Of a stretch of DNA of 27,006 nucleotides, positions 3,772-23,373 are shown piece after piece; position 1 is the stretch's first letter; every line of letters begins with the position of its first letter. Made by a program: the position numbers and the translations under genes. The DNA is from Fragilaria crotonensis (lineage: Eukaryota > Bacillariophyta > Fragilariophyceae > Fragilariales > Fragilariaceae): NCBI GenBank assembly GCA_022925895.1, contig JAKSYS010000763.1, forward strand, positions 1 through 27,006. Reading direction: 5' to 3'. The notes under the pieces are model-generated. The model was not told the DNA's origin. It made no database searches and saw only the letters and a list, made by a program, of their open reading frames with translations.

Positions 3772-5186
3772 ATGCTGCGTATTTTGCCGTCATCGTTTCG
3801 AGCATGGGCTCATCATCCTAAAGCGCATCAATCGGCTCTCCGTCAGAAAATGTCAAAGGATAAACGGCAGGCTACATCTGTGTCATCATTCTCATCCTCT
3901 TCTGGAATGCATCTTCCCATCACCCAATTCAACGAAGACGAGCAAATGACGCGGAATGCAGCTCGACAATGGGCACGTGAGGAGTTGAAACCAATCGTTC
4001 GAGACATGGACAACGAGGAAAAGCTCCGCCCGGATATCATTCGATCACTATTTGACAACGGATTCATGGGAATGGTAAGTTTGTACGTGTGTTACACTAC
4101 GAGAGCTCAGTCTAATCACTATCTTTACTCCATATTTCTCACGAGCATGTACCAACTTTTCTCATTCTCATTTCGCATATTGTCAACAGGAAATCCCCGA
4201 AGCCCACGGCGGATCGGAGCTGAGTTTCACATCTGCCTGTCTCGTGGTGGAAGAGATTTCTAGAGTGGACCCATCCGTAGCAATTCTGGTGGACATTCAC
4301 AACACGCTCGAACAATGCTGTTCGATTTTGGGGATCGGAAGCCCTCCAACAAAAGTGGTTGCCCCGCCTCGCCCGCGATTCAGTCTCATCGTTTGCCCTG
4401 TCGGAAGCCGGGTCAGGGTCTGACGCATTCAGCATGAAAACTACCGCAACTCAGATTCAGGATGGATCATCATCCTATCTTCTCAATGGGAGCAAGTTGT
4501 GGATCTCTAATGCTCCTGAAGCCGGAGTATTTCTAGTGTTTGCCAATGCTGCGCCAGAGAAGGGGTACAAGGGGATCACAGCTTTCGTGGTTGACGCCAA
4601 GACCGAAGGGATTACTGTGGGGAAACCTGAAAAGAAACTTGGACTGAAAGCCTCATCTACTTGCCCTGTCATGTTTGACAACGTTCGAGTGGATGTCGAT
4701 GACGTCCTGGGGGAAGTTGGCCAGGGTTACAAATACTGTATCAACATTCTCAATGAAGGTCGGATTGGGATTGCCGCCCAACAGATCGGGATCGCCAAGG
4801 CCTGCGTCTATGACATTGCCATGCCGTATTTGTTGGAGAGAAAGCAATTCGGTAGTGCCATTGGAGATTTTCAGGGCATGCAGCATCAATACTCTCAGAT
4901 AGCTACCGAGATTTATGCAGCAGAAACCATGACGTACAATGCTTGCAGACTGAAGGAAGCAGGGTATCCATTCATCATGGAGGCCAGCATGGTCAAGCTG
5001 TATTCAAGCCAGGTAGCTGAGAAGGCTGCAAGCAAGACAATTGAGTGGCTGGGTGGCATTGGTTTCACGCAGGATTTGCTGGCAGAGAAGTTTTATCGGG
5101 ACTGCAAAGTTGGCAGCATTTATGAGGGTACCTCCAACATTCAACTTCAAACCATTGCCAAGCTTATCCAGGCCGAGTATAAATGA
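3772..5186 (+). CDS. ACADSB: Short/branched-chain acyl-CoA dehydrogenase, mitochondrial; one intron, frameshifted at about 4310
   Basis: This flavoenzyme family oxidises short and 2-methyl-branched acyl-CoAs in mitochondrial isoleucine/valine breakdown, passing electrons to ETF. Exon 1 (3772-4074, 101 codons) begins with an Arg/His/Ser-rich, acid-poor leader fitting mitochondrial import, followed by the N-terminal helical domain. An intron (4075-4189) separates it from exon 2, which opens E-I-P-E-A-H-G-G and reads V-D-I-H-N-T-L up to 4309. The continuation N-N-A-V-R-F-W-G-S-E-A-L is in the next frame from 4311, so the gene is out of frame by one base there (probably two bases lost from a Val codon). 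That second frame runs to TGA at 5184-5186 and carries the FAD-binding A-L-S-E-A-G-S-G-S-D, R-K-Q-F-G and I-Y-E-G-T-S-N-I-Q-L, whose Glu is the expected catalytic base. Summed length (about 432 codons) equals the usual family size, so only the indel is abnormal: assembly error or recent inactivation. Confidence 0.85.
4075..4189 (+). other. Spliceosomal intron of the acyl-CoA dehydrogenase
   Basis: A 115-nt phase-0 intron starts GTAAGT right after ATG codon 101 and ends TCAACAG. It is T-rich near the acceptor and contains in-frame stops if retained. Removing it restores the family motif F-M-G-M/E-I-P-E-A-H-G-G exactly. Confidence 0.85.
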
Positions 5187-6522
5187 TACCAAGTTTCAAG
5201 ACTGAACCGTCAATGTATAGGCGGCTCAAATGAGTCTGACGAGACATGAACGGGATCATCGCCTTCCGAATGCCGGGAGGCGAACGATGCTGAAGGACAA
5301 GACTTTAAATCACCGTGTCGCACCTTACCTAGGTTGTACGACACATGCTCATCAGATCTTTGCTCTAGTAGTAGTCGAGCATTGACATGGATGTTCCCCC
5401 TAAGCGAATACTCCAGTATCCCATTATGATTTTACAGTAAATCAGTAGTGGAGTCAGTAATTGTCCTGGTACTCCAGTACGGTACTCCTTGCGCGTTTTA
5501 CCAGAGAGTACTGTAGCATGCATATACGGTGCATCGGAGTTAGATGTTCGCAACAAGTTCAATTCTCGCCTGCTGCACCGACTATCGACGTCGAACTCTG
5601 GAGGTTCCGGAATTCCTGCTAAATAGTGCATCGTACTCCGTAAAGGATTGGTAGAATTTGTCAGTGCATATTGAAAATGTCTCAACCACGAAATTCTGTT
5701 ATTTACGATCAGATCTCATGTCAAAACGTGACGCACCTTTGAGACTTCTATGTATAAATCCTGAATGATTATGTATAATATGTTTGTCTATTAACTATTT
5801 GTGTCATACCAATATCACCTTCACCTTCCTACACACGAGCTTGTTCTACAATACGGTAAATTCATTTTGTCCTCGTTGGCAGACTATCGTTCGGACAAAT
5901 TGTTTTCGAACAAGAGTTACAGATAGGAATCTTGCGTTAAGTAAAGTTGAGAAAGAATGAGAAAGTTTAAGAAAATATGAGAAACTTCTTTTTTCTCACG
6001 TCCGATTGAGAAAGTTTGAGATTATTTAAGAAAATTTAAGAAGGTGCGATTTTATTACCAGGTTCACGTAGATTATTTGAGATTTTATAAGCAACTCAAA
6101 TCTTCTTAAAGTTTCTTAAGAAAGTTTGAGAAAACTTAAGAAAATTTAAGAAACAGCTCGAAAACATATGTATCTTGACGATTCCTAATGAGAAGATTCC
6201 ATTCGAATGCGACGGAGAATCAAACGTGAAGAATTCATTCCCATCGGATTGTCATACCAGTCGATACCAGTGCATTTTTCCAAGCCTTCTTTCATTTTTT
6301 TCTAGGCGAATTTGTCGTACGTACATTTCTACTATTCCATGCTTACTGCGAATTTAGATAGGTTTACCATATTGAATAAAAATATTTAGTTTGTATGTCA
6401 AATGCGAAATTCCGTAGGAAATCACTAAAGTCGTCGTAACCGTTTTCACTTAATTTCATGTCGGTCGACATAAGCGTCGAAAAGAAGATATTCCGGAACC
6501 TCCTGGAATCCAATACGTTACG
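5187..6522. other. Intergenic, GTAC-rich then A/T-rich with a purine repeat island
   Basis: No gene is supported. About 5340-5700 carries GTAC-type words. About 5940-6155 is the AGAAA/TTTAAG repeat island listed separately. 6200-6480 is A/T-rich and leads into the GST promoter region without any motif I can name. Confidence 0.6.
5943..6153. repeat. Degenerate (G/A)AGAAA-NTTTAAGAAA repeat island
   Basis: About 210 bp is dominated by variants of GAGAAAGTTTGAG and AAGAAAATTTAAGAAA, with a few inverted copies (for example CTTAAAGTTTCTTAAG near 6106-6121), so it can fold back on itself. Just outside lie TAGGAATC (5924-5931) and its reverse complement GATTCCTA (6180-6187), a weak hint of a 264-bp inverted-repeat element. 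Composition differs clearly from the GTAC-rich flank. Confidence 0.6.
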
Positions 6523-7381
6523 ATGGCAACAGCAACTGTTCCGAAGTTTCGTTACCTCTCTGCATGGTTCTGCCCCTTCGCTCATAGAGCAACGCTAGCG
6601 TTAGAGCATCACAGTGGTAGAGTTGAGTACGAATGGGTGGAAGCGTTGGGTTGGGAACAACGCAAGGATGAGAAGAATGTGACGGGCACAGGGCAAGAGT
6701 GGTGGTACCATTGGAAAGCCGATGAATTGAAACGCGCGAACCCATCAGCTCTTGTCCCAACTCTGATCCCTGTCGATCGAAATACAAATGTGGCTGACGA
6801 AGGAAGGGCTGTGTACGAATCACTTGTGACTGTCGATTTCGTCGATCAAATCAGTGGTGCTACTGGAAAGGATCGACTGGTACCAGAAGATCCATATGAG
6901 GCCGCACGGTGTCGAGTGTGGGCAGATAAGGTCAACAGGGATTGCTGTTCTCCATACTACGGCGTCTTGGTGCGCAAGGAAGAAGAAGAACGAATGGAAC
7001 ACTTCTCTAACCTCCTTAAAGGATTAAAATCATTTTCCTTGGAGCTAAAGAAGACCAACGGTCCATTGTTCCTTGCGGATTCACAACTCTCAAATGTCGA
7101 CATCTCTCTTCTCCCTTGGGCATTCCGCTTTTATGTCTTCGAACACTACCGAGGTCCAAACTACGCCATTCCGACTGACGATCCCGAGTTGGCTCCCTAC
7201 CACGAATGGCTCGATCACCTTCTGAGCCTAGATTCGGTGCAGCGCACTCTACCAGATAAGCGTGAGTATCTTGTACACATTGGGAAAATATGCAGATTCG
7301 TCGGCGAGATCGAAGGTCGCCAATGCGGTGCGAAGAGGTGTGGCGGCACACGAACTCGATGACGAGAAAGATGAGTATTGA
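6523..7381 (+). CDS. Glutathione S-transferase, omega-like, with a late frameshift
   Basis: A cytosolic-type GST conjugates or reduces substrates using glutathione. The start ATG at 6523 begins directly before the thioredoxin-like domain. Residues 15-22 read W-F-C-P-F-A-H-R, so Cys17 sits at the active-site position used by omega-class enzymes. A-L-V-P-T-L-I-P (76-83) is the cis-Pro loop that binds the glutathione backbone, and V-Y-E-S-L (97-101) holds the Glu-Ser pair that binds its gamma-glutamyl group. An all-helical C-terminal domain follows. The uninterrupted frame ends at 7362, but its last 25 residues look wrong. Dropping one A from the run at 7285-7288 gives K-Y-A-D-S-S-A-R-S-K then N-A-V-R-R-G-V-A-A-H-E-L-D-D-E-K-D-E-Y and a stop at 7379-7381, which resembles the usual GST tail. 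Either an assembly homopolymer error or a real frameshift. Enzyme class is confident; substrate unknown. Confidence 0.85.
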
Positions 7382-7500: not shown

Positions 7501-8785
7501 GCTATCAAATACTCGGAGTGTTTTCGAGAATATGACATAACGAAGTTCGTTGCCATACTGGAGCAGGGTGGAGCACCGAGTACATAGTACCTGTGTACCA
7601 TGTACTCGAGTACCTGGTACTAGTACTGCGAGTATGTATGCATATTCATATATGTATATGCATAATGCTCTTGGTCGGAACCCTTCGTACTCTGCATACG
7701 TAGGACTCGGAGTACAATACTACTGAACATTCAGCACAGGTACTCGAATAATCCAGTACTGGAGCACTAGCTAGAGTACTACCGGTAGAGAACAAGCCAC
7801 TACAGACCATTCGGGCTGTGAAGAAGTGGACCGATTTTTGGTTATGAGTACAATTTTATATAAAAATGCCGTTTTATTTAACCTTCCTTCACCGCCTGTC
7901 GAGGAATGTACTTCTATGGTGCGTAATAAATGAATAGATTGTTTTGGAAAAGACGTTAAATTCCCCTCCAAATCCGCCACTGGTGCAACAGGTTGACGAT
8001 GTACGCATTCTACGGTGCTTCGATTGATGACAATGAGTCAAGAATTACTTCGTTTCTACATTAACAATGGCGATAGTTACTTGCCCTTCAAGGCGGATGG
8101 AACAATTCAATCCATTAATAGCTACCGGTAGTCATCAGTCGTTTGTAGGGTTGTTGGCAGTCGGAAAATTGAACCAGTAGTTGAGGTTCTGACACCCTCG
8201 TTCGACACGGATTCCAGTATTTCAGAAGTGGAGCACCGCACCAAGATATGGAAAGCACAGATAAACAACAAGCATGCTGGGGAACATGGCGTACCGAAGG
8301 TTGATCATTCAGAGTTGTTCTCTACTCTTGATTGTAGTGAGCTTGTCTTCGGGAAACTGGTGAAATCATCGTTGGCAATCTTGGTGATAACGGAGCGAAT
8401 CGTTCGTTAAAGGGGACAGCATCACAGGCAGTTACTTCTCCTTAGCCCTGGTACTGTTTGCAGCTATTAGCATTAACTTGGGGAATTGCTTGATGTCAAA
8501 TACTAGTGAAAGCCCCATTGAATGTGCATCTGGGTCACCGGCAACAATGAATGCTTCATACTACTACTACAAGTACCACTCTTGTGCTGCTTCGCATCAA
8601 TTATGATTTTGGATTATTCTCCACAGAGAATCTACATAGGAATTGGTACATAAAGAAAGATTCAACGGGCCAATGAGAGTGAGACTTGGACCTTCCGTAG
8701 AGCGTACGCGGGAACTAGTACAACCCTAGTTTTCTTCCCCGTGGAAGGCCAACTCCAAGCCTAACATCGACTTCACCAAAAACCA

Positions 8786-8862
8786 AAACGACGACAAGAG
8801 CGTGCACTATGTGAGACCCCTCAATGCATTGAACACTATTGTGCACGCTTTTATCGTCGTTT
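8786..8862. repeat. 22-bp imperfect inverted repeat with 33-nt loop
   Basis: The left arm 8786-8807 (ends AGCGTGCAC) and right arm 8841-8862 (begins GTGCACGCT) pair over 22 positions. Read as plus-strand RNA the stem has 20 Watson-Crick pairs, one G-U pair and one A-C mismatch. The loop is 8808-8840. The stem could be a hairpin RNA or the folded core of a small inverted-repeat element; nothing in the sequence settles which. Confidence 0.7.
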
Positions 8863-9454
8863 CAAGAATTGATAGAGTTGTCGCACATCGAACATCGGGA
8901 CTGACCGTTAAATACTCTGAAAAATAGTATTTTTATATATGTTGTCAAAGTCCGATAGCAAAAACTGTCAGATAACGGTATGCTGGCTGGATCGGTCCAC
9001 TGCTTCAGAGCCCGAATGGTCTGTAGTGCTACTGTAACGAGCACGCCGAATACACCATGCATACGCAAGTTCGTTCTTGGACACGCCGAGTTTTATGCAT
9101 GGATGACATATGAACAGGCATGTATGAATACAATACGCGAACTTCACATTCAACACATTCAAAGCAATATCGACGAATCTGGGAAAGATCCGACGTCGAA
9201 GTCGGCATTTTGTGTCAATCTTGGTCGTGCACGCGCATGTCACATCTATCGTCGACCATCTACACAACAATATTACAGTGATCTGTACACTCCTTAAGTA
9301 GAGTATTTTTGCTCGATGCGAACTGTCCACTTTAGAAAACACGTAAACGAAAACCATCTTTCCGGCCGTCTCAGCTTTTAAAGTCTTACGTACCCTACAA
9401 TCGCCATCACCAACCTAACTCTTCTTCAACTTCCCATTTGAACATTCACATAAG

Positions 9455-9559
9455 ATGAATCCGGCAGCCCACAGCGACAAAGTAACAACTTACGACGGTA
9501 AAAATACGCAATGGACAAGCTGGGCAATCAGGTCGATCTTTTTCCCTCAGCGTCGTTGA
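9455..9559 (+). promoter_or_regulatory. Overlapping upstream ORF at the ankyrin gene
   Basis: An ATG at 9455 opens a 34-codon frame that overlaps the ankyrin start (9511) in a different frame and stops at about 9557-9559. If the transcript begins upstream of 9455 this could dampen translation of the main frame. A GT...CAG interval (9498-9531) could in theory splice the upstream ATG into the main frame, but 34 nt is too short for a credible intron. Confidence 0.3.
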
Positions 9560-10395
9560 TTGACCTGATCACACAGGAGATGTGGGACGACGTGATGAAT
9601 CGACTCCAAAAATGCGATGACGACGCTCGATCAATTGGCGTGATCAAGCTCTTCGGCACGCGAACGAAGGGTTATCCATTACATGCTTTATGCAAGAAAA
9701 GGAGTTTTCCTATGCCAGTGCTTACTGCGTTGACAATAGCCATGCCCGCAGCTGTGACAACCACTGTGGGCCCCTCCAAAAGTCTCCCCATTCACATTGC
9801 GTGCACCAGGAATGCGCCACTACTAGCAATCGAGCACCTTGTTTCCCTCCACCCGGAGAGTCTTCATTTCCCTGATTCGGAAGGTAACCTTCCTATTCAC
9901 CTTGCTTGCTCAGTGGGTGAAGAATCTGTGGTGACATTCCTCGCCTCCGTTAGTCCTGAGTCTGTTCGAATGACAAACTCAAAGCTCCAAATGCCTCTAC
10001 ACTTGGCATGCAATCGATACAACATTTCAATTGGTGTGGTCGAGCTGCTCTTGATGCGATATCCCCAGGCAGCAAAACATAAAGATTGGCAACATCAGGT
10101 CCCCCTTCACAAGGCCGTAACGTGGAGGGCGAACGTCGGCGTGCTTGGAGCACTTCTGAATGTCGTCCCGGACGCCACTCGCTTCCGCGACAAGCGATCA
10201 CTGACACCATACAAAATCGGGCGGAAGCTCTTGGGCTTCAACTCTGATGATCCCACCATCAAACTGCTTCGACGTCATCGGTTCAAGCATGGCATGTTCG
10301 CATTTCGAATATTCGATGCTGTTCTTTTCAGCATCGAGAATGTGAGGGATAAGGTGCTACCAACGAAGAGATCAAGAACAGCAAGGGCTTCCTGA
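9511..10395 (+). CDS. Ankyrin-repeat protein, diatom type
   Basis: A 294-residue protein made mainly of ankyrin repeats, which act as protein-binding scaffolds. Repeat cores are visible as Y-P-L-H-A-L-C (55-61), S-L-P-I-H-I-A-C (91-98), N-L-P-I-H-L-A-C (about 126-133), M-P-L-H-L-A-C (161-167) and V-P-L-H-K-A-V (197-203), with a weaker sixth at L-T-P-Y-K-I-G (231-237). The spacing of about 35 residues is typical, as is the hydrophobic helix pair after each core. The N-terminal 50 residues form an acidic helical cap (M-W-D-D-V-M-N-R-L) and the C terminus is basic, ending K-R-S-R-T-A-R-A-S. No catalytic domain, signal peptide or membrane span. An upstream ATG at 9455 opens a 34-codon frame overlapping the start in another frame (listed separately). 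Large families of this type occur in diatoms; the partner is unknown. Confidence 0.85.
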   Translation: MDKLGNQVDLFPSASLIDLITQEMWDDVMNRLQKCDDDARSIGVIKLFGTRTKGYPLHALCKKRSFPMPVLTALTIAMPAAVTTTVGPSKSLPIHIACTRNAPLLAIEHLVSLHPESLHFPDSEGNLPIHLACSVGEESVVTFLASVSPESVRMTNSKLQMPLHLACNRYNISIGVVELLLMRYPQAAKHKDWQHQVPLHKAVTWRANVGVLGALLNVVPDATRFRDKRSLTPYKIGRKLLGFNSDDPTIKLLRRHRFKHGMFAFRIFDAVLFSIENVRDKVLPTKRSRTARAS

Positions 10396-11115: not shown

Positions 11116-11144
11116 GAGTCCCCGTCTGTGTCCCCATTTCGAGC
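11116..11144 (+). repeat. Left inverted repeat of the composite element
   Basis: 29 bp, with 11121-11144 matching the reverse complement of 17036-17059 without a mismatch. The outer five bases are GAGTC here against GAGAG at the other end. Confidence 0.7.
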
Positions 11145-11458
11145 CGTCCATGCATTTCAAAGCGAACTTCATAGTGAAGGGATATATCTTATGATGTGAA
11201 TGGAAAAAATATAGCACATGTATACTTTTATATTAATATATTTTAACGGCTAAATCACAGATCGATCGATGTTGCGACAGCATAGGAATCTTGGTTTCCC
11301 TTTTTTTGAAAAAAAATGTGCTGTTCAAGTTCGAGGATGTTACTAGCATTTTGTGTGTCCTTCACACAAAACACACACAAATTTCAAACCAGCCCCATTA
11401 CCATTCTTGTCCCTCCTACTCTTCTCCTTTGTTCCCCACTTTGCATTTTGTTTCTGTA

Positions 11459-11930
11459 ACGCTCACAGTTCACAGAGGAGTCAGGTAAGTTGGGCAATGA
11501 TGTTTTGCGGTGTTTGTGATGGATGTTTGTTACTGTTTTTTGACGCTTGTTATTTCATTTCATTTTGGCGCGGCTTGTTGTACTGTATGGGACTGCCGCT
11601 TGTTTCTGCAACGCTCACAGTTCACAGAGGAGTCAGGTAAGTTGTGCAATGATGTTGTTGCAGTGTTTGTGATGGATGTTTGTTACTGTTTTGTTGATGC
11701 TTGTTACTTCATTTCATTTTGGCGCGGCTTGTTGTACTGTATGGGACTGCCGCTTGTTTCTGCAACGCTCACAGTTCACAGAGGAGTCAGGTAAGTTGTG
11801 CAATGATGTTTTTGCGGTGTTTGTGATGGATGTTTGTTACTGTTTTGTTGATGCTTGCTGTTACTTCATTTCATTTTGGCGCGGCTTGTTGTACTACTGT
11901 GCTGCTTTTTGTACTGTATGGGACTACCGT
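11459..11930 (+). repeat. Tandem repeat, unit about 153 bp, about three copies
   Basis: Copies start at 11459, 11611 and 11765 with the shared word ACGCTCACAGTTCACAGAGG, giving unit lengths of 152 and 154 bp. The third copy drifts into the next repeat block. Every copy contains GTCAGGTAAGTTG, a consensus 5' splice site, with donor G at 11485, 11637 and 11791, followed by a T/G-rich stretch and GGCGCGGCTTGTTGTACTG. This could be a repeated 5' untranslated exon/intron of the element or simple satellite growth. Confidence 0.8.
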
Positions 11931-11934
11931 TTGT

Positions 11935-12712
11935 TTCTTGTACTGTCTGGGATCTCGTACTACTGCTGCGTGGGATCTTGTACTACCGTGCGCTTTCGTA
12001 CTGCACTGTATGGGATCTCGTACTACTGCTGCATTGGATCTCGTACTACCGTGTCATTTGTTGTACTGTATGGGATCTTGTACTACTGCTGCATGGGATC
12101 TTGTACTACCATGCCGTTTCTCGTACTCGTACTGTATGGGATCTCGTACTACTGCTGCATGGGATCTCGTACTACCGTGTCATTTGTTGTACTGTATGGG
12201 ATCTTGTACTACTGCTGCATGGGATCTTGTACTACCGTGCCGTTTCTCGTACTCGTACTGTATGGGATCTCGTACTACTGCTGCATGGGATCTCGTACTA
12301 CCGTGTCATTTCTTGTACTGTATGGGATCTTGTACTACTGCTGCATGGGATCTTGTACTACCGTGCCGTTTCTCGTACTCGTACTGTATGGGATCTCGTA
12401 CTACTGCTGCATGGGATCTCGTACTACCGTGTCATTTCTTGTACTGTATGGGATCTTGTACTACTGCTGCATGGGATCTTGTACTACGTGCCGTTTCCCG
12501 TGCTCGTACTGTATGGGATCTCGTACTACTGCTGCATGGGATCTCGTACTACCGTGTCATTTCTTGTACTGTATGGGATCTTGTACTACCGCGTGGGATC
12601 TCGTACTACCGTGTCATTTCTTGTACTGTGTGGGATCTTGTACTACCGCGTGGGATCTCGTACTACCGTGTCATTTCTTGTACTGTGTGGGATCTCGTAC
12701 CGCGTGGAATCT
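11935..12712 (+). repeat. Tandem repeat, unit 126 bp, built from GGGATCTCGTAC sub-repeats
   Basis: Equivalent points recur at 12128, 12254, 12380 and 12505, so the unit is 126 bp with one 1-bp loss in the last copy. Each unit holds four sub-repeats of the form TGGGATC(T)CGTACTACYG, alternating CTCGTAC and CTTGTAC. After 12590 the array continues with shorter units. Because 126 is a multiple of three and no stop falls in the unit, all three plus-strand frames stay open across it, which produces long but meaningless reading frames. Confidence 0.85.
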
Positions 12713-12730
12713 CGTTCAAAACCAAACGGC

Positions 12731-12858
12731 CAACGCTCAATGGCGCACTCCAACGCTCGATGGTGCACTCAACCAGCACTCCTAACGTATCATTACTGCG
12801 CCATGTATGATTGTCTGATACGTTATGGGCTGGCGTTGGAGTGCGCCATTGAGCGTTG
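12731..12858. repeat. Nested palindrome
   Basis: The outer arms 12731-12756 and 12833-12858 are perfect 26-bp reverse complements (CAACGCTCAATGGCGCACTC...). Inside them 12783-12792 (TAACGTATCA) and 12816-12825 (TGATACGTTA) are a perfect 10-bp inner pair. The left arm is followed by a direct near-copy of its first 20 bases (12751-12770, two changes). The segment can extrude as a two-tier cruciform or be the remains of a small inverted-repeat element inserted in the larger one. Confidence 0.85.
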
Positions 12859-12890
12859 CACGGTTCGATGGATGATAGTATCCGACACCC

Positions 12891-12932
12891 GTTGCATACT
12901 CACAAGACCGCGTTGCATACTCACAAGACCGC
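12891..12932 (+). repeat. 21-bp tandem duplication
   Basis: The unit starting GTTGCATACTCACAAGACC occurs twice head to tail (12891-12911 and 12912-12932) without a mismatch, just after the nested palindrome. Confidence 0.8.
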
Positions 12933-13037
12933 TGCTGGGAAAGGTCCTCCATCCTCACTCAGTGACTTAAAGAGCTTCTCTCATTAATTCAAATAGCTCC
13001 CATTTTTACTCATTGACATTGTATGTGGCAGCAGTAG

Positions 13038-14474
13038 TGCCGCGACCAATGGTACTTGGACCATGTTGCAAGCTTCATCGTGAAAAAGGTCACTGCTAGC
13101 CCCCAGCACATTGTACCTGGTAGCAGTAGCGCCGAGATCATCGGGAGTGGGAACATGATTCGTAGTTGCGTTGTGAAAAAGGTCACTGCTAGCCATCATG
13201 GTAGCAGTAGCACCGAGATCAACGCGACAACAATCATGAGGCCTGCTACCGGTGTGAAAAAGGCCACTGCTAGCCATGACATTGTACTTGGTGGCAGCAG
13301 TAGCACCGAGATCAATGCAAGTTTCAGCATGATGCCTCGTACTGTTGCAAAAAAGGCCACTGCTAGCCATGACATTGTCATAAGTACTAACAGGAGCACT
13401 GATGACATCGAATCAAAACGTGGCTTCGAATGCAAACGTGGCTTCCAACACCTGTACAAGTCAACAACTACAAACTCGAGCCGCAGAGTGAATGAGGCCT
13501 ACAAGGCTACAGTTAGGAATGGTGCTCCAAAAAGCAAAAATGCCATGAGACGTGACAAAGCAAAAGCAAGAAAGATTGCGTGCCTGACGGAAGTTGTGTC
13601 ATCAAGTGTTCATGCATTGGGAAGGGCATTTCTGAGCACTCGACCAGTGTTTTACAGTGGAACCAAAAATCGAACGCTTCCAAACCCAATTCCGAATGGG
13701 ATTATGTTATCTGCAGTTGAGGATTTGCGTGTGATTGATACAATTTCTGGTGCTCGAATGTTGTCATCGACCGGAGATACCGTTTTTATTTTGATTCCAC
13801 GTCATGACGCAATCAAGGACAATACTTATGTGAAGAGGACATTGATGGCACTGTATGCTCTAGACAAAGGGAAAAGGGTTTCGAAGTGAGAGGGAAATCA
13901 AGAATCACAGTTGCGAAGACAATGGGAAGTACGCAACTGTCGGCTTGAAACCAAGGAGAGGGTCGACAGGCGTATCCGAGTTTTGGCCTGAGAAGTTGGG
14001 TGAGACTGATAGAGAGGTGATTAGAAAAGTAATGAGTAGATGTCAGGAAGTTGCCAAAGGGTATCTACCATCAACTGAAGTCCGAGGACTTCTTTTGCTC
14101 AATTGCTTGGGGGTGGCAGCAAATAAGTGGAGTGACATTGAATCCTCTGGGGTAGCCTTGCATGTGGGAAGAATTACTATTTGAATTCTCATGTGGATGA
14201 AGACTTTTCTATTCCTTGACAACTGTTGCTTCGAACAGGAGTGCAAGACAATGATTGTTACATGATGGAAGCCGCCATTTGCAACTACTTTACGTTTGCC
14301 GAACAAGGAATTGCTGTGGCGCTGAGGCCTGGTGACATGCTGATCTTCAATCCGCTTTATCATCACTGCTTGTCGTCACGAACGGCAAGGTATGAAAACG
14401 ATGATGTCTTCTGCTTGTCTTTGTATTTGAAAACTGCAGTTGTTGGACAGAATGACAATCGTTTACCTATGTAA
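13038..14474 (+). pseudogene. Degraded Fe(II)/2-oxoglutarate dioxygenase (possibly TET/JBP-like) with repetitive N terminus
   Basis: Three open stretches in shifting frames read as one protein of about 480 residues. 13038-13889 starts without any ATG until 13155 and has four copies of V-K-K-(V/A)-T-A-S...G-S-S-S-T-E-I, then a basic region (about residues 110-180) and a globular segment. The frame then shifts to give G-K-S-R-I-T-V-A-K-T-M-G-S-T-Q-L-S, shifts again to the stretch ending 14184, and again to 14226-14474. The catalytic layout survives: H-V-D-E-D-F (His 14190-14192, Asp 14196-14198) is an H-x-D iron motif; R-P-G-D-M-L-I-F-N-P-L-Y-H-H-C-L-S-S-R carries the distal iron His (14361-14366) and a candidate 2-oxoglutarate Arg (14379-14381). 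The fold call is by these motifs. TET/JBP membership, which would mean oxidising methylated bases, is a suggestion only; related forms are known to travel with transposons in fungi. Confidence 0.55.
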
Positions 14475-14548
14475 TTTGTTTAATTGTGTTCTTGGTAGCT
14501 TGCGTTTGCTATCATCGTCGTCGCAGTTGTTGTCACTTTGGTTGCAGT

Positions 14549-14816
14549 CGTCCTGGGATCTCGTACCGCGTACCGCGTGGGATCTCGTACTACCGTGCCG
14601 TTTCTCGTACTGTATGTGCGTATGGGATCTCGTACTATCGCGTGGGATCTCATACCGCGTTGGATCTCATACAACACCGTTTCTCGTACTGCGTGGGATC
14701 GTTTGGCGTGGGATCTCGTACTAGCAACCGCGTGGGATCTCGTACTGTGTGGGATCTCGTACAGCGTGGGATCTCGTACAATTGTACAGCGTGGGATCTT
14801 GTACAGCGCGGGATCA
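14549..14816 (+). repeat. Second array of GGGATCTCGTAC sub-repeats
   Basis: About ten irregular copies of GTGGGATCTCGTAC separated by short GCG/ACC spacers, in the same orientation as the 126-bp array. The two arrays flank the dioxygenase relic on both sides, as subterminal transposase-binding repeats or recombined satellite would. Confidence 0.8.
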
Positions 14817-15020
14817 AAACATGAGTCACTACAAATATGTGACCATGAGGAACTACAACATGAGTTTGTAATTGATGTTTAAGTACTTCTACTAACTTTT
14901 TATTCATTTCTTTTCTTTCGGACGACACTAGCGTGAGTACTTCCAACTCTCTTCTTCTTACCTTTCTAGTACTCTTTGTCATCTGTTGCGAAGCACCTTC
15001 ACGAAAGTTTGCAACTGCCT
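14817..15020. other. Spacer between the dioxygenase relic and the zinc-finger segment
   Basis: Short region of mixed composition between two convergent relic genes. No motif seen. Confidence 0.5.
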
Positions 15021-16607
15021 CTAAGCGGGAGAAACCTCGTCAAAGAAAGGAATCCTCTGCATCCCAACTATCTTCCTTGTTGCTGACAGCAGCTTAGACA
15101 ACCCGTCATTGCTGAAGAAGCGTTGCTCGATCGAAAAGTTTGAGTGACATGTGCAACAGCATTCCTGCCCACCTGCGCACTTCGGGCACAGGTTTCCTTC
15201 ATCACAAGAACCCTTATGGGCAGTTGATGCACCAAAAGCTCCAGTGTGATTGAAAGCACTGTTCTGTGCATCAACATTGATGTTCATGACATGGAACCGA
15301 CGATGCATTTCCAAGCCATAACACTGGCTGCACACGTTGAAATCCTTTTGTAGCAGCTGCTCACATCCCCAACAGTGCATATATGTGTTTGATAACTCAT
15401 GATAGCAAAGACTGCAAGAGTATCCTGTGTTATCATATGGATCAACAGGAAACACAGACAGATTCTGAAGCATCAGTCTCACGTGAGCAATAATGATTGT
15501 GCTCAGAACTGGATCCCCTGTTCCTCCCAGTCCTGATTATAGTGAGAAGCCAGGTGGCTGTATTGTCGTGTACAAGAAGAATGTAATCAAGGCTTTCCTC
15601 ATTGCGCAAGTAGTGCACAAGTCTTTCAGCTGGTGATTGACCTAAGTCCACTGCAGTACCGCCACCAGGACCGACCTGATTTCCTCGTGCCAGCACACCT
15701 CCTCAGCTGGTCAGAGGAAAGAGATGCCAGTTCGCTCCACAATCAGAGCCTGCACAATTGCAGGCTCTGAATTCAGTGAAATGCATTGCCTAGATAACTC
15801 AAGTTCCAATTGCGGCACAGTGTGATACGACAATCGGACATCAGCAGGTTCCTTTTTGGTGACCTTCATGGGATTTACACCCTGTCCCATCCGCACAAAA
15901 GTACCAGCGTCCAGCAACGTTGTTGTTAAGGCCATCATTTGGTTCCCAATATAGTGAGAATGCAAATGGACATATTGACTCCTTGTTTGCTGCTGAGGGG
16001 CGAATGCGTTTGACGAACGACCGGAAGACTTGTACTGGTTGATGTTGTTGTCGTTGTTGTTGTCGTTATTATCATTGTCATTGTCGTTGTCATCAATCTT
16101 GTTCCTCAAAAGATCCTTCTTGTCGTCATGAGCTCGAGAGTGCTGACAAAAGAATCGCAGTTTATTCGATGCCTTCTCCCAACCTTTGGATGCCACTTTG
16201 AAACCTGCCTGGGCACATGCCACTGCAATAAATGGGATCACATGCTCTTTTCGGGATGAGGGACTGTTGGAATTAAAGCGACGAGGCAGATATTGACGAA
16301 GGTGCTTGCAATTGTCATCCCGATTGCTACGCATTCCGGTCCCAATGAAGTCAGCAAGATTAACAGTCCTGATGGACTCATCACCGTCGCCAACTTGAAC
16401 TTCACTGTCACCAACCTGAACTTCACTGTCACCAACCTGAACTTCATCCTCACCAACAACCTGAACTTTGTCCTCACCAACAACCTGAACTTCGTCCTCA
16501 CAAACCTGCCCTTCAACAAGCTGAACTTCTATAGGAAGAAATTCAGTGACCCATTGTTTATTCACCTCAACAAGAGCAGTAATGCGACTGAGGACAAATG
16601 GATCCAT
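15021..16607 (-). pseudogene. Mutator-like transposase N-terminal half joined to a Cys-rich zinc-finger segment, frameshifted
   Basis: It starts at a true ATG (16605-16607). The first frame (to 15711, 298 codons) has acidic E-V-Q-V-V-G-E-D / E-V-Q-V-G-D-S repeats, then a basic region with F-I-A-V-A-C-A-Q-A-G-F and R-F-F-C-Q-H-S-R-A-H resembling the FAR1/MULE DNA-binding segment, an Asn/Asp tract, and E-P-A-I-V-Q-A-L-I-V-E-R-T-G-I-S. Two small shifts at 15690-15720 restore S-S-D-Q-L-R-R and then G-G-G-T-A-V-D-L-G-Q-S-P-A-E-R-L-V-H-Y-L-R-N, a block I associate with diatom Mutator-like transposases just upstream of their DDE core. The core is missing. Instead another frame gives V-D-P-Y-D-N-T-G-Y-S-C-S-L-C-Y-H-E-L-S-N, Y-M-H-C-W-G-C-E and C-P-K-C...C-C-C-T-C-H, a multi-zinc segment of RING/ZZ-like spacing ending at 15021. 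At least three frame changes. Family call by motif memory, unverified. Confidence 0.5.
16377..16520 (-). repeat. In-gene repeat encoding acidic E-V-Q-V-G-D units
   Basis: Six or seven copies of an 18-24 bp unit (plus strand CAACCTGAACTTC with CACTGTCACC or GTCCTCACCAA spacers) lie inside the transposase-like frame and keep the frame, producing an acidic repetitive linker. Confidence 0.75.
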
Positions 16608-16696
16608 TAGTAGTGAAGTAGCTCGTGTGCCCCTCCTTCACAATGGTTGCCCCGCAGTCGATCAATTGTTGTTGTGTGCTGTGTTGATCGTGATGT

Positions 16697-16738
16697 GTTG
16701 TTGTGTGTGCGTTGTTGTGTGTGCGTTGTTGTGTGTGC
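16697..16738. repeat. 14-bp tandem repeat, three copies
   Basis: The unit GTTGTTGTGTGTGC occurs three times exactly, about 90 bp upstream of the minus-strand transposase-like start, so it would sit in that gene's promoter or leader. Confidence 0.85.
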
Positions 16739-17035
16739 GTTGTGTTGCTTAGTTTGTTTGTTCTCAGTTTTGTGATGAGAGAACCCGCGCCAAAAAACAA
16801 ATGACAACAAGAGCAGAGGATGATAGATCCAAGTCACAAAACTTTTTTGAATATCACATCATGCAAGATTCCATTGAGGCAGTTGTAACACATGTATTAA
16901 ATAACGTCTCACAACCGTAAGTCAAATAGTCAAAAAAATGAAACGGTAAAAAAACGGCAATTGTATGACATAGACCATATAGTACTTTAATAGTATTTAA
17001 TTGTACAGTGTAAAAATAATTAGCTGGCTTGATGC

Positions 17036-17064
17036 GCTCGAAATGGGGACACAGACGGGCTCTC
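17036..17064 (-). repeat. Right inverted repeat of the composite element
   Basis: Reverse complement of 11116-11144, with 24 perfect bases (17036-17059) and two differences in the outer five. The sequence on the outer side lacks an obvious duplicate of the left flank. Confidence 0.7.
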
Positions 17065-19002
17065 CTAACCAGGACCTGAGCGGAGTATACACTGCAGTAC
17101 AAGGATTTTCCCGAGAGTCATACAATTAAAGTATACTTTCCGACCTGCCCTAAGGTCCAGTTGTGCGTACGTTCTGGTACAAACGACACGTAGGAACAAG
17201 GGCAAACGTCGAAAATCATACTTCTAGCTGTATGACTTTCCGAGCGGCCCTAATCCAATTCACGTCCGTGTTTTGACGAGCGTTGACAGTTAAAGAATGG
17301 TTATTCCCCTGTACTTACTTCGACATTTTGAATTTCGCGCACTAATCGAGATTTGTACGACAGTACTCGAAGTACAGTACATAAGAAAAATGAACGACAA
17401 TAGAGCAGTACTACAGTAGTACAATACCTATATATCCAGCGTCGTGTCGTTGCAGTTTGTGTTGTACTAAGAACAACTATGCATGCTGAGAAATAGCTAT
17501 TAAATAATAGCAAGTCTATTATACCTGCTACCACTATGCCTAAGATGAAGGTATTTGACTCACATGGATAGGCACAACACTCCTGTGGGATCTGCAATCA
17601 TTTTTCAGTAGGTGACATCATGACAACAATGGCAAATTAAAGTATTGCTTCTCTGATGAGTCGATAACTTTTCCGAAAGATAGACACATGAATCGCGAGC
17701 AATTTTGGTGACTCCTACTAGGGGATGTTGGTCATGATCAGAAACGTCTTGATGTGACAGCTTCTGTACTTTCACCTCGTACTGCATTGTATGAGGACAT
17801 CAGTACTACTACTAGACCTCCGTTAATTGCTGGCGCATTTTGCATTTTGAGGCCTCTGCTTGGGTGTGATTGTAGTGCCTGTGTGTCCCTTGATTCTGAT
17901 GTTTCCAAAGCTTGCACCATTGTTCCCAACATATGAGTTGGATTAAATTTGCCTGCCATGCCAAGCTAGTATATTGATTGAGGTCATCATTGTCATCTCA
18001 TTGAGGAGATGAGTAGTAGTAGCATTGCTGGTGTTGCCCATGCTAAATCTCCTCCAAAATAATGGAGCCCATCCATTCCTGTTTTGTTGTATGATTATGT
18101 GTTGCACTGTGGGGTGATAGTTCTCAATATCAGTTCAGGAGCAGAACCAGCACTGCCTGGCATAACCCATCCAACAATAGAGCAGCAGCACAAAGCAGCA
18201 GGAAGGTGTTTGGCTGAAGAAAGAAATTGCAATTTAAGTCCAGTCAAGAACTGATTGTGCCATTCTATGCAATTGCTAAGCTCAGCACATCATATAGTAG
18301 CTAGTACTAGTACTAGTAGCCTAATGCTGAGGCTAGAAGTGATGATGCTTGTGCATTCTTGAGTGGATGACCTGGACAAAAAGACTCACTTTACTAGAAT
18401 GAGCTTCCCAGTTGATCAATTTAAGGGAAGACAGATTCCATGCATTCTTTTGTCAAATGTTTTGGCAAATGCCCCATGAACAGAAGTTTGTGAATCCACA
18501 GTGATGCTCCAATTGGGAGGAATCAATGGACTCTAGCTAAAGGAAACATGAGAACAATCCCTCAGAGTTGTGAATCGCTGGTAATACTCTGCTGAGAGTG
18601 TATCTGGACTCTGGAGTACAAGTTGTAAGTACTGTACTGCTAGAACCAAAAGCCCTACTGTACTACGGAATGTACTACTGAATTAAATACGGAATGTACT
18701 TAGTACTATGAAATGGAGTACTACTGTACTGAATTTACTACGGAAATCATGTGCGTACCGAGTTACGTATGACATAGTGATGAACGTAATGTATTTGTAC
18801 TGTACCTGGTACTCGGAGTACAATGTATTGCACTACGTAATGGAGTACTCGAGTATTAATACTATGTAACGTCCTACGTAATGCCCTACGTAAAGCGATA
18901 CACACATTCCTGTCCTATTGATACTTCATGGTTCTAGTTTCAATATAACTAACATTGGATAACTCCACTTCCTTATACCATTTACGTACCTTTTCAGAGT
19001 CA
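17065..19002. other. Gene-free stretch, probably old repeat DNA
   Basis: Nearly 2 kb without a supported gene. 17111-17265 has a weak direct repeat (see findings). 17600-18560 has a more even, coding-like composition and a minus-strand frame at 17738-17959 with no recognisable motif, so it might be a decayed element. 18600-18900 is packed with GTAC, TACGTA and GAGTACTC words. Confidence 0.5.
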
Positions 19003-19004
19003 TA

Positions 19005-19562
19005 CAGTGCAGGACACTTATAAACGACAATTATTATTTTTGTTTCAAATTCTCAACTAGTGTGCACTGTAGTACTGTACAGCAATTGTTGTACTACATC
19101 CACGTTTGAGCTCATAACCTGTCAGCCCGTCTTCACCATTCCAGTACCATTATACTACGGTAGTGATCTAGAAAGTGGTTACAGTGCGTACTAGTACTGT
19201 ACGATACAGTAGGTCTTCCAGTAGTGTTATACTGAGACCTCTGTAGAACCTACACAACGATCGAGTTTGGGTGATTTGTAGGCTTCAGTATTTTCGAAAA
19301 AAATGTGTTTCAAATTCTTGATCCAAATTTTAGATTTCTCTGAATCGTCCAGAAATGTAATAAAAAGTGATCATTGCGAAAAAATGTTGCACCTTCCGAG
19401 CTCAATAAAACTTTCAATTCTCAAAAATTAAAAAAAGTAATCCGAGGAAACACTCAACAATCTGATCAAGAAGCACTTTGTCGGATTAATATTTTTATCT
19501 TCATCCAGGGAAGGGGAGATGTTTCTTAACAAATTTGTGTCGTTTATAAGTGTCCTGCACTG
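19005..19562. mobile_element. MITE-like element with TA flanks (Tc1/mariner/pogo type)
   Basis: 19005-19029 and 19538-19562 are perfect 25-bp reverse complements beginning CAGTGCAGGACACTTATAAA. Each end is flanked by TA (19003-19004 and 19563-19564), as expected for a TA target duplication. The 558-bp interior is A/T-rich, contains no transposase-like frame, and includes GTAC words. A CAGT-starting end with TA duplication fits the Tc1/mariner/pogo group; superfamily is inferred from termini only. Confidence 0.75.
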
Positions 19563-19564
19563 TA

Positions 19565-19786
19565 CCTTAGGTGTATGATTTCCTCCACCGCTTATCAGGT
19601 CCAATATCGGATAAATGACGGTTTTAAGGTCGAGAGCACCAGCCACATTTTTTTTTCAATATATTTTTTCCTATTTTTCCACCATTCAGTACGAGGAGAC
19701 ATCACCAGATTCGTCATCGCCACATGTGACGAACTCACGTGTGTGTTGTTCATCCCTGTGGTCAGCAACGATATTTTGACACGGCT
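19565..19786. promoter_or_regulatory. Short upstream region of the SET-domain gene
   Basis: About 220 bp separates the MITE-like right end from the SET start. It contains T-rich tracts near 19649-19683 but no TATA box or initiator I can defend. Confidence 0.35.
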
Positions 19787-20443
19787 ATGAGTACTCGACT
19801 TCAAGACTTCCACCCGTCGTTTCTTGAGAATCTCGCTCGTTTGGAGACGCTCGAACGCTGGCGAGAGCTTGCAATCCGACCGTCGATCGATACCTGCCAT
19901 AAAGAGGACAGACTCCTTCTCAATGATGGCATCGATAACTTACCAGAGCTAGAAAAAAGATCGCTTCACGCAAGGGACTTGATGAACAAATTCCTCCCGA
20001 TATTCAAGACACCGCTCGAAGAATCCTTGGTCATGGCACCGAGTCGGATCCCTGGCGCCGGCAACGGTCTCTTCTACCAGCCCAGTGTACCTGGTGGCAG
20101 AAATAGAGCTATCTCAGCAGGTGAAACAATCTGCTACTATTATGGTCATATTCACAATTTTCAATCCGCCAGGAAACTAAATGACAAGTCGTATCTTATG
20201 TTAGTTTCTGGTACTCTCTTTGTTGATCCGCGACCATGCTTGCACATCAAGGCCCGCTTCATTAATGACCCACTCAATGATGAGCATGTGAACTGCGAAT
20301 ATCTCCCAGACCCAGCAAATTTCCGATGCATTGTGGTTGCAACAAAAGAGATACAGCCCAACTCCGAGTTGTTTGTAACCTACGGTGACTTGTACTGGAA
20401 CCAGCAACAAAGCAAAGGCAGCGTCTTCAAAGGGGCGGGATAA
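19787..20443 (+). CDS. SET-domain protein, small, probable lysine methyltransferase
   Basis: 218 residues from the first in-frame ATG at 19787. SET domains transfer methyl groups from S-adenosylmethionine to lysines of histones or other proteins. Residues 1-80 are helical and acidic/basic mixed. The SET core follows: S-R-I-P-G-A-G-N-G-L-F (86-96) is the entry strand, I-S-A-G-E-T-I-C-Y-Y-Y-G (109-120) the G-E-x-I motif, R-F-I-N-D-P-L-N-D-E-H-V-N-C-E-Y (157-172) stands where the R-F-I-N-H-S-C-x-P-N-C pseudoknot segment normally is, and I-Q-P-N-S-E-L-F-V-T-Y-G (189-200) is the closing E-L-x-x-x-Y-G. The usual N-H-S dipeptide is replaced by N-D-P, a deviation common in non-histone SET proteins but one that leaves activity open. 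No pre-SET or post-SET zinc cysteines. Its stop lies 4 bp from the SDA1 stop on the opposite strand. Confidence 0.8.
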   Translation: MSTRLQDFHPSFLENLARLETLERWRELAIRPSIDTCHKEDRLLLNDGIDNLPELEKRSLHARDLMNKFLPIFKTPLEESLVMAPSRIPGAGNGLFYQPSVPGGRNRAISAGETICYYYGHIHNFQSARKLNDKSYLMLVSGTLFVDPRPCLHIKARFINDPLNDEHVNCEYLPDPANFRCIVVATKEIQPNSELFVTYGDLYWNQQQSKGSVFKGAG

Positions 20444-20447
20444 TGCG

Positions 20448-22913
20448 TTACGTCTTCCTTCTTCTCTTCTTTTCGTCATATCGCTTCTCCTCGCTTTTGG
20501 CTCGCTTGAGATTGTTCTTACCGCTTCGCTTATGTCGCGTTTCATACGAGTATTTCGACATTTGGAAGTTCTTCTTCCTCTTATTCTCAAGATTAGTGCT
20601 TCCTCCAGCACGAGCCTTGGATTCAAACTTTTGACGACCAGCAAGAATACTTTCCAATCGTTCAGCCTTGGACTGCCGCTTGCGCTTGGCATCGGCAGCA
20701 ATATCCATAGGATTGACTGCTCCAGCAATATGAATCTCGTCGTCATCTGAGTCGACGTCGTCGCTTAGCTCATCGTAGTCTTCCCCACGAGAAATCGCTC
20801 TTTTTCTTCTAGCATTCTCACGTGGATCCCGTTTCGATCGCTCTTCGCGATCGACAAGCTTTTTCATGCGTGCAAAGTCAGCCGCTGAAAAGATGCGAGT
20901 TGCCGAAACTTCTTGCTTGAGTTTGTCACGCTCTTCGGCGGTCATTTTGGTGATATCCAAGACACCGTCAGCTTCTTCATCTTCTTGCTTTCCATCGGCA
21001 CCGAGTACCACCAGCTCGGGCGCTTCGTCTGCCTCTTCGTCGGATTCAATTTCAAAAACGTCGCCATCACCTTCCCCAACGTCCTTCCAGCCATCCTCGT
21101 CTTCCTCCTCCTCCTCCTCCTCCTCCTCCTCATCATCATCTTCCTCCACATCGTCGTCGTCGCCGCCTTCTTCGTCATTCATGGGTTCCACACCCTCGCC
21201 GTCATCCTCCTCATCGCTTGATTCCTCTCCTTCCTCATCGTTCTTCTTTTTTGCGGCTTTTCGAGACTCATAGGCTACCAGTAAATCCGCTCCCTCAACT
21301 CCCGAAGCCACCTTGACTTGACCGAAGCGCAAAGGCGTGACGCCAGCCTTATGTAATGACGTTCCTGCCAAACCGCGATCTTTGCCCTGCAGCAGTCCTG
21401 GATGAACTTGTCGAATGAAATTGGTCCATGCCTTCCCGGCAATCATGACCGATCGATCTCGGTGCTTGGAGTAAGCAGCCAAGTCTCGCGCAAAGGCTTC
21501 CATGTCAAGGGTGACGGAATTCTCCTCATCACTCTCAATGGAGAGCACGGACGGAACTCTTGTACAAATAGCTCTGGCGGCATTGATACCGACTGCCATT
21601 TGTTCGCCTGAACAACGCTCCGTAATGAAATTGTGAGCAATGGTCTTCAAGATTCCGTGAATTTCATTGGGTGGCACTAAATCATGACATGCTTGAACTG
21701 AGTACGCCAGAATGGCAGTCACGTCACGTTGGTGACCTCCCATGTAGCGCTGCAAGAAAGGGTAGAGACCAAGGAGCGACAATCGATGATTTCCAACCAG
21801 GCGTGTGACAAAGTTGATCATGAGCAGTTTGGTTTCGTATTTGAGGGATGCACTGGATCCTTTGAGCCGTTTAAGGAGAACCTCTGACAATCCCTGAGGA
21901 TCTCGTAGCATTTCGATAGCTGGATACAACTTCTTGGCATGTTCCAGTCCACCGCGCTCTTCCAATTCGAGCCAATCTGGGTTTTCCTTCTTCAATTGTG
22001 CCTTGACTCTATTCTTTTCCTGGCGCTCAACATGATTTGCGCGTTTCTTAGTCTTGCGCGAATGTTTGTGAATATTGACTGATTGAGAACCCGCAAACTC
22101 TTCCTCAATCTCTCGTTTTTGATCCAGCGCCATCTTCTCCTCAATATTCAGAAAGAATCGAATCGCACGACACATGACAGTCGAATTCTTACTCGTCGAT
22201 GCCGATGCTAGAATTGCAACTGTTCGTTCGTCTGTCCAGACAGCACGACGGTAGAGTTCGCACACCATGTCTGTGGCACGCTTCTGTGCTGTCTCCGTTC
22301 CTTCCTCCCCATCGCTTTCCATCGACACGATGCGGTGCAAAAAGGCTTGAATGCTGCGGTTGAGTGTTTCATCTCGTTTACCCTTCTTATTGATATTCTT
22401 CACGTCATTGACAATATGACTGTAGAGTAGCTCCCTCAATGCCTTGTCGGGAACGACAGACATGATTCTGAAAAAGAGTTCCAACAATCGCAGGGGTTCA
22501 ATGGCACCCTTGTTTCGCATCAGAATTAGAGCCGACACACAAGCCTTTCGTACATCCCGATGCAACGACAGCGCAGCTGTCGGCAACGACATGGCCAGAG
22601 TTTGTTTCTGGCGCTCTTCCATGTACTCACTTCCCAACAACAGCTGGATCAGCATGCTTCCAACCCGATCCGCTTCTTCTCCCTTATAACTTGATGACGA
22701 GACCGCAGCCGCAAACTGTATCAACTCAACGAGACGGGGTGATGGATTGGAGCTGGGTGACAATGCCAGGATGCCACATTCTGATTCCAACCGACGCACT
22801 TGGGCATTGTAGTCTTCACGGTATCCATCGGGGTCGCGTTTGCAAAAATTTTGCAACTGTGCCAACTTGAGAGTGACATCGACGCGAGTTCCTGCACCTG
22901 TTGTCAACGACAT
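20448..22913 (-). CDS. SDA1: SDA1 homologue, 60S ribosome biogenesis factor
   Basis: A single uninterrupted 821-codon frame. SDA1 is a nucleolar/nuclear protein needed for late 60S subunit maturation and export; yeast SDA1 is about 770 residues, so the length fits. The N-terminal half is HEAT/ARM-like helical repeats, opening L-A-Q-L-Q-N-F-C-K-R-D-P-D-G-Y-R-E-D-Y (17-35), the family's characteristic start. I-H-K-H-S-R-K-T-K-K-R (about residue 295) is the second family signature. Later D-L-A-A-Y-S-K-H-R-D-R-S-V-M-I-A-G-K-A-W and L-Q-G-K-D-R-G-L-A-G match the conserved SDA1 core. Then come a long Asp/Glu tract with ten consecutive Glu, a helical K-M-T-A-E-E-R-D segment, and a Lys/Arg-rich tail with nuclear-localisation character. 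It is divergent from the DHHC gene, sharing a 460-bp promoter region. Confidence 0.95.
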   Translation of the reverse strand: MSLTTGAGTRVDVTLKLAQLQNFCKRDPDGYREDYNAQVRRLESECGILALSPSSNPSPRLVELIQFAAAVSSSSYKGEEADRVGSMLIQLLLGSEYMEERQKQTLAMSLPTAALSLHRDVRKACVSALILMRNKGAIEPLRLLELFFRIMSVVPDKALRELLYSHIVNDVKNINKKGKRDETLNRSIQAFLHRIVSMESDGEEGTETAQKRATDMVCELYRRAVWTDERTVAILASASTSKNSTVMCRAIRFFLNIEEKMALDQKREIEEEFAGSQSVNIHKHSRKTKKRANHVERQEKNRVKAQLKKENPDWLELEERGGLEHAKKLYPAIEMLRDPQGLSEVLLKRLKGSSASLKYETKLLMINFVTRLVGNHRLSLLGLYPFLQRYMGGHQRDVTAILAYSVQACHDLVPPNEIHGILKTIAHNFITERCSGEQMAVGINAARAICTRVPSVLSIESDEENSVTLDMEAFARDLAAYSKHRDRSVMIAGKAWTNFIRQVHPGLLQGKDRGLAGTSLHKAGVTPLRFGQVKVASGVEGADLLVAYESRKAAKKKNDEEGEESSDEEDDGEGVEPMNDEEGGDDDDVEEDDDEEEEEEEEEEDEDGWKDVGEGDGDVFEIESDEEADEAPELVVLGADGKQEDEEADGVLDITKMTAEERDKLKQEVSATRIFSAADFARMKKLVDREERSKRDPRENARRKRAISRGEDYDELSDDVDSDDDEIHIAGAVNPMDIAADAKRKRQSKAERLESILAGRQKFESKARAGGSTNLENKRKKNFQMSKYSYETRHKRSGKNNLKRAKSEEKRYDEKKRRRKT

Positions 22914-23373
22914 GATGATGAAGATGAGTCTATGACGATGCTATAATTCTTTCGGCGAAGTTGAGAAGGGTGTCTATGGTATGGTGGATGAACGAATGGA
23001 CTTGTTTATGGTGTGAAACAGTACTGTACTCCGAGTCCGCTAGAGTGTATCGATACAACCAAGCGACGACGGAAACGATTTTTGGATCGCGCAAGTGTAT
23101 ATGTGGTTACACATTTGCATTTTTGATTGGTTTCGACAGCACATAACAAACGGTTGAAGGATGGGCTATTGATCGTACGAAGTACGGTAGGCCATGCGGA
23201 ATCAGTCGAGTGTCGAATCTCGACACTGCTGTAGTACGATGTAGTATGCCAGTAACGTACGATGAATAAGCACTGCGAAAGCAATGAGACCTCGCTTTGA
23301 GATAGAATTGGTGCTATGATTGTGATGTGCGCAAACACGGTGGCATTGCCCGGCTGAGACATTGATTCTGACG
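22914..23373. promoter_or_regulatory. Divergent promoter region between SDA1 and the DHHC gene
   Basis: 460 bp between two divergent starts. It holds a GTACTGTACTCCGAGTC cluster near 23021-23038 and GTACGA/TAGTACGATG words near 23176-23260. No TATA box is evident for either direction. Shared regulation is possible but not shown. Confidence 0.4.

Follow-up and report, generated by a model that had tools for sequence, protein, structure and literature searches.

An internally deleted Mutator-like transposon copy in the diatom Fragilaria crotonensis, with relatives that carry a predicted TET-fold dioxygenase gene

What kind of element lies between the inverted repeats that bracket positions 11116 to 17064 of contig JAKSYS010000763.1 of the diatom Fragilaria crotonensis, and why does it contain a dioxygenase gene? 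The window analysed here is the whole stretch of 27,006 nucleotides of that contig (assembly GCA_022925895.1). A first-pass annotation, made from its sequence, had described the block as a composite in which relics of a dioxygenase gene and of a transposase gene travel with a Cys-rich segment and satellite arrays. Our analyses indicate instead that it is a real, recently multiplied element, and a single one with an internal deletion. We consider it highly probable that this is a shortened copy of a Mutator-like element (MULE)-type transposon, the fuller copies of which hold genes for a MULE/SWIM transposase and, in opposite orientation, for a dioxygenase of predicted TET fold; this enzyme would likely oxidize 5-methylcytosine and help the element escape silencing.

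The terminal repeats are 29 nt long and 93% complementary, and their perfect core of 24 bp is as first annotated. The 85 bases starting at 11116 occur at seven places in the 62-Mb genome, the window counted, six of them identical, and the 165 bases up to 17064 at eight places; other copies with the same ends, one of the supports that had been proposed for an element, thus exist. Between copies, homology ends at one base and the flanks are unlike, except that the outermost left bases are altered in copy C197. A 23-bp core pattern, with up to three mismatches allowed, has 45 sites in the genome versus none for the reversed control, which rules out a chance inverted repeat, and many of these sites pair up at spacings of 0.2–16.5 kb. 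The worry that the repeat might be a common dispersed word is thereby removed: it is the end of an element. MULE terminal inverted repeats with defined ends are present in the group to which the window copy belongs (group A), and a second lineage (D) has inverted pairs that bound short copies.

Seven copies have both ends, namely the window copy (5949 bp), C108 (6570), C31 (7567), C197 (8269), C12 (8985), C497 (10558) and C39 (16519), and C355 has the right end only. The six two-ended copies other than C39 are deletion variants of one layout, consisting of tandem arrays and a plus-strand dioxygenase gene, followed on the minus strand by a third gene and the transposase gene (Table 1). Relative to C12, a deletion of ~3.5 kb in the window copy removed the catalytic domain of the transposase and most of the third gene; hence, this copy keeps an upstream part of the former and the Cys-rich end of the latter. 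The Cys-rich segment (15021–15536, minus strand) does exist, as proposed; it forms the C-terminal end of a third, separate gene, and the deletion junction near 15466 links it to upstream sequence. The satellite arrays are likewise present.

Table 1. Parts of the element, in window coordinates.
Feature	Positions	Strand	Remark
Left terminal inverted repeat (element 5' end)	11116..11144	+	7 copies end here; C197 outermost bases differ
Tandem arrays: 154-bp units followed by GGGATCTCGTAC-type units of 23/60/126 bp	11448..12715	.	Left part; length varies in other long copies
TET-like 2-oxoglutarate (2OG)-Fe(II) dioxygenase gene, frame-broken	13038..14474	+	Protein match about 13107–14465
Second GGGATCTCGTAC-type repeat array, 3' of dioxygenase	14568..14815	.	
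Third gene, C-terminal Cys-rich part (ZZ-like, under Pfam cut-off)	15021..15466	-	
Internal-deletion junction, approximate	15466..15467	.	~3.5 kb gone vs copy C12; C12 3931 joins C12 7412
Putative upstream part of MULE transposase gene, cut before catalytic domain	15467..16637	-	Query residues 1–40 of 697-aa frame left
Right terminal inverted repeat (element 3' end)	17036..17064	-	Border common to 8 copies

Copy C39 has only the end regions and a transposase fragment in common with the others; by eye, the interior frames of this 16.5-kb copy (G000:C39:22033-38551) are retrotransposon-like, of endonuclease/reverse-transcriptase type. At the other extreme, seven terminal-repeat pairs spaced at ~0.2 kb look like miniature derivatives. 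Three short group A copies (L051, L052 and L055) have the same repeated flank and an extra half terminal repeat beside one end, as if two ends had met.

The class of the element is assigned from its transposase alone. In C12, an open frame of 697 residues scores above cut-off with three Pfam models (ZSWIM1-3 RNase-H-like, MULE and SWIM) and matches no other family of that database; the MULE DDE transposase domain (PF10551) scores 28.4 bits versus a cut-off of 27.6. The same domain reaches 51.6 bits (E 1.4e-13) in the transposase of lineage D (L047), which is 24–30% identical to that of group A. The Mutator-like class put forward in the first-pass annotation is therefore borne out by these profiles. 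Its assignment of a transposase N-terminal half fared less simply: the window segment 15711–16637 (minus strand) has no Pfam match and its C12 counterpart only a weak, unrelated one, but because it immediately precedes the catalytic frame in C12 and C355, it most likely belongs to the transposase gene. In C12, the part upstream of the 697-residue frame is in another frame, and no copy read has the whole gene in one frame. Kyakuja-Dileera-Zisupton (KDZ) elements of fungi bear TET/JBP genes (PMC12730594), which might have suggested such an element here. Its probability is close to nil, and we regard a KDZ origin as ruled out by the MULE-type transposase; no KDZ transposase was seen between the ends, and Zisupton is described as leaving 8-bp duplications, of which there are none here.

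Indeed, the flanking duplication of 9–11 bp foreseen by the first-pass annotation is missing: none of 18 insertions (seven long group A, four short group A and seven D) is flanked by a direct repeat of at least 5 bp. The short group A insertions represent four of seven pairs, L051 and L055 sharing the flanks of L052 and L057 having an irregular left end. A 4-base flank match occurs in three of the 18, versus a shuffled mean of 0.62, so that a very short duplication is possible in some copies. Empty-site relatives of the C12 insertion contain no duplication and hold extra bases between the flanks that are absent from the occupied site (six in C659, three in C60, gaps of three and eight in C477); this evidence concerns one insertion and diverged relatives (74–86% identity), whose own indels could mimic missing bases. 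No empty site was recovered for the window copy, its right flank being a repeat. Positions 17067–17265 are part of that repeat, which has at least 15 further matches, and 13 among the matches listed start 2–5 bases past the element end.

Since MULEs normally generate target-site duplications of 8–11 bp (PMC6446971), these results raise the question whether another enzyme moves the elements, with the MULE transposase as a passenger, which would explain the lack of duplications; the bases missing at the C12 site also speak for it. However, no other recombinase was found among the listed frames of C12 and C497 or in six Pfam-scanned pieces, and a diatom MULE group (37) is itself given as 'No TSD', i.e. 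without target-site duplication, in that 2019 survey of MULEs (PMC6446971). We thus judge another mover very unlikely and retain a MULE-type transposon as the preferred reading.

The dioxygenase relic of the window was correctly recognized: in tblastn searches, an intact relative of 472 residues matches it over the relative's residues 56–471 in three pieces, with frame changes. The family, which includes the F. crotonensis protein MHU86_19298 in the NCBI database, has the Fe(II) triad HxD...H in all 58 filled rows of a 59-row alignment. A structure model of the homologue P0005 predicts a double-stranded beta-helix with a fold nearest to TET enzymes, in line with the TET/JBP type initially proposed. 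In fold comparisons with this model, TET-type rows outscore the best FTO/ABH3 row by 2.6 to 8 Z units, and their alignments span 225–300 residues, versus 169–203 for the other listed rows. The dioxygenase thus has a predicted TET-like fold, and the model suggests that its likely activity would be the removal of silencing methyl marks from DNA. A methylcytosine substrate is plausible since the genome has 13 matches to C-5 methylases (subfamilies lumped). The enzyme might alternatively target RNA or histones, or repair alkylation in the manner of AlkB/FTO; the margin in Z units and the longer alignments with TET-type structures argue against this, and we consider it unlikely. A viral origin of the gene was also considered and rejected: the family alignment matched 44 stretches of viral_contigs and tblastn found no relatives among them, although absence there is weak evidence.

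Is the association between the two genes regular? The search with the dioxygenase segment gave 44 candidate places, of which 40 were scored, and that with the transposase gave at least 69 matches (64 of 90 candidates scored); 52 of the 69 entered the pairing count, and the other 17 are additional fragments from places that were already represented. A MULE match lies within 6 kb at 20 of the 40 dioxygenase places, on the opposite strand in all 20. These comprise five of the six group A places (the window copy has lost its catalytic part) and 15 of the 19 places outside both group A and the helicase-type set (see below). The two of those 15 places that were read, L047 and L048, belong to the diverged MULE lineage D. 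The right end of lineage D has a terminal repeat pattern, CGGGTCCGATTAGGTTTCACCAATTTGAC, with 165 sites in the genome versus none in the control. Inverted pairs of CGGGTCCGATTAGGTTTCACCAATTTGAC bound shorter D elements; in long D copies, only the right end was found.

A different neighbour characterizes the helicase-type places. In all 14 fetched (out of 15; C783 was left out), the dioxygenase gene is beside a superfamily 2 (SF2), RecQ-like helicase gene with Pfam DEAD and Helicase_C matches, the helicase frame on C592 being identical to MHU86_5782. The first-pass annotation had named separate occurrence of the two genes as a point that would count against it, and these 14 places fit that description in part. 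Two helicase types that are only 52% identical at the protein level carry dioxygenase genes 94–95% identical at the DNA level (L030, L032, L034 and L035, i.e. C411, C592, C269 and C578). That identity ends within two codons of the stop codon, and downstream there are only two patches of 67–70% identity.

In protein trees, the group A gene groups with helicase-borne B relatives (10 rows; support 95 in the first tree and 94/92, below the tool's star, in a later one). The helicase-borne C type in turn groups with the D gene (18 rows; support 96 in the first tree; 100/99 for the 18-row set around D in the later one). Carriers are given for the genome copies in these trees, which also contain database rows. 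Forcing the A and D clades together was rejected by an approximately unbiased (AU) test (P=0.002) on seven rows picked after the first tree had been seen, with 51 of 71 rows retained and 20 long-branch or distant rows dropped. It supersedes an earlier test that forced only the two MULE-borne rows together (P=6e-83), which was unfair as near-identical relatives were left outside. Because of the tree, the AU test and the near-identical gene in two helicase types, the dioxygenase gene appears to move between carriers; taken with the opposite-strand pairing, its presence beside helicase genes reads as gene exchange between carriers.

In C497, the third gene has two helicase-associated (HA) domains at its start (E 1.2e-28), upstream of the Cys-rich part; the latter matches ZZ_ADA2 under the cut-off. 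The middle of the third gene matches an unlinked gene at C203 with 46% identity (residues 188–414). A search with that part of C203 yielded 13 proteins, four of which have a precomputed HA domain, so the combination recurs elsewhere. By eye, the C497 gene also contains FHQDG and a later H...GxxHAF in different frames, which we take to be JmjC-like, a provisional name with which no profile agrees: profile scans gave no JmjC match, only the HA domains and the weak ZZ. The NCBIfam scan of two pieces gave no match, and a solved-structure search with the relative P0113 returned only weak forkhead matches. More tentatively, and leaning against it ourselves, we envisage the TET-type gene as a cassette in at least four lineages of one diatom (two MULEs without target-site duplications and two RecQ-helicase elements). 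In fuller group A copies, it would be joined by a putative demethylase with HA, JmjC-like and ZZ parts, making up a DNA-and-histone counter-silencing payload of stramenopile origin, independent of fungi.

Several observations weigh against a functional TET-type gene in a MULE. Six group A copies carry a dioxygenase, and in every one of them it is broken. The open transposase frame of C12 includes the catalytic and SWIM parts, but unbroken dioxygenases were met in helicase-type elements and in the database, where protein P0015 is about 99% identical to group A. Of the intact versions of both genes that the first-pass annotation had hoped for, an open catalytic frame and unbroken dioxygenases were thus seen, though never both in one copy. 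The helicase-type places make up 15 of the 40 scored, and at another four no MULE lies within 6 kb. Pfam Tet_JBP (PF12851) matches only three of 53 family members (best E 0.024) and the 2OG-FeII_Oxy_6 profile two (best E 0.1), and in single members some unrelated families score as well as or better than Tet_JBP. The family profile retrieved nothing relevant from the sequences of the PDB, and the structure model is that of a homologue, not of the window's own protein.

The dioxygenase could accordingly be host cargo caught by chance, with no role for the element and a pairing kept by descent only. MULEs are prone to picking up host gene fragments (PMC6446971), and both the broken group A genes and the third-gene relative at the unlinked C203 would fit. 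However, dN/dS (the ratio of nonsynonymous to synonymous substitution rates) of the dioxygenase is low between elements, with dS near saturation in most inter-group pairs; the MULE pairing occurs in two lineages whose dioxygenases form no single clade; and the gene is present in helicase-type elements too. Chance capture therefore seems quite improbable to us, and the first-pass reading, corrected as above, is supported.

A MULE-type element with a TET-like gene might work as follows. Fuller copies would make the transposase, which could also move shortened copies with terminal repeats in trans. The dioxygenase would oxidize methylcytosine, or another methylated base, in or around element DNA and thereby weaken silencing. 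Because it would pay any carrier having it, the gene may have been handed by recombination among the two MULE and at least two RecQ-like-helicase lineages. If true, TET cargo on another transposon superfamily in a diatom, with signs of carrier exchange, would suggest that counter-silencing by demethylation has evolved repeatedly. Transposons of the diatom Phaeodactylum tricornutum are methylated. The idea could be tested in diatoms with the existing DNMT5 knock-out lines of P. tricornutum (PMC9998398) and the pH-responsive mobile-element genes of F. crotonensis, which are reported to be up at high pH (PMC9732472).

The window contains two other elements. One, at 7798–9028 (1231 bp, inverted ends of 38 bp, 95% complementary), has 79 genome matches, including 99% identical partial copies in C515 and C405. 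The other, at 19003–19564 (562 bp, perfect inverted ends of 27 bp), has four more full- or near-full-length copies with 97–99% identity (C44, C459, C501 and C386). Ordinary frames around the main element code for an acyl-CoA dehydrogenase (4281–5183), a glutathione S-transferase (6454–7359), an ankyrin (9502–10392), a SET domain (19730–20440), SDA1 (20451–22940), a DHHC palmitoyltransferase (23326–24450) and a PF00775 dioxygenase (25769–26479).

Iyer et al., in 2014, reportedly described TET/JBP-carrying DNA transposons of fungi. With the structures of CcTet, NgTET1, TET2 and CMD1, our family shares the predicted fold and the Fe-binding HxD...H; in contrast, sequence identity is 8–13%. TET/JBP genes are present on ten named fungal DNA transposon lineages, for which counter-silencing and exchange between carriers are argued (Kojima 2025, PMC12730594). 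In the relevant parts of that paper, MuDR comes up solely in connection with other cargo and diatoms are absent, and a limited search of open-licence papers turned up no report of a TET gene carried by a MULE or by a diatom transposon. The fungal systems resemble ours in having a TET-type gene in DNA transposons, several unrelated carriers, gene exchange and a proposed anti-methylation role. They differ in that ours are MULE and RecQ-like-helicase elements of a diatom, with a family hardly seen by Pfam TET models.

MULE-Diatoms group 37 (PMC6446971) similarly combines a MULE transposase with a SWIM zinc finger, a diatom host and no target-site duplication, but has one open reading frame and terminal repeats of 123–124 bp, as opposed to two or three genes and 29-bp repeats here. 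Plant Vandal families, which carry a protein regulating their own silencing, and Phytophthora MuDR, which carries SET genes (PMC12730594), are likewise MuDR-type transposons with an epigenetic factor; theirs is a silencing regulator or a histone methyltransferase, whereas here it is a TET-like oxidase. As far as these sources go, such cargo is already known on other transposons in fungi; the present case differs in having predicted TET-like cargo on the MULE superfamily, and in a stramenopile.

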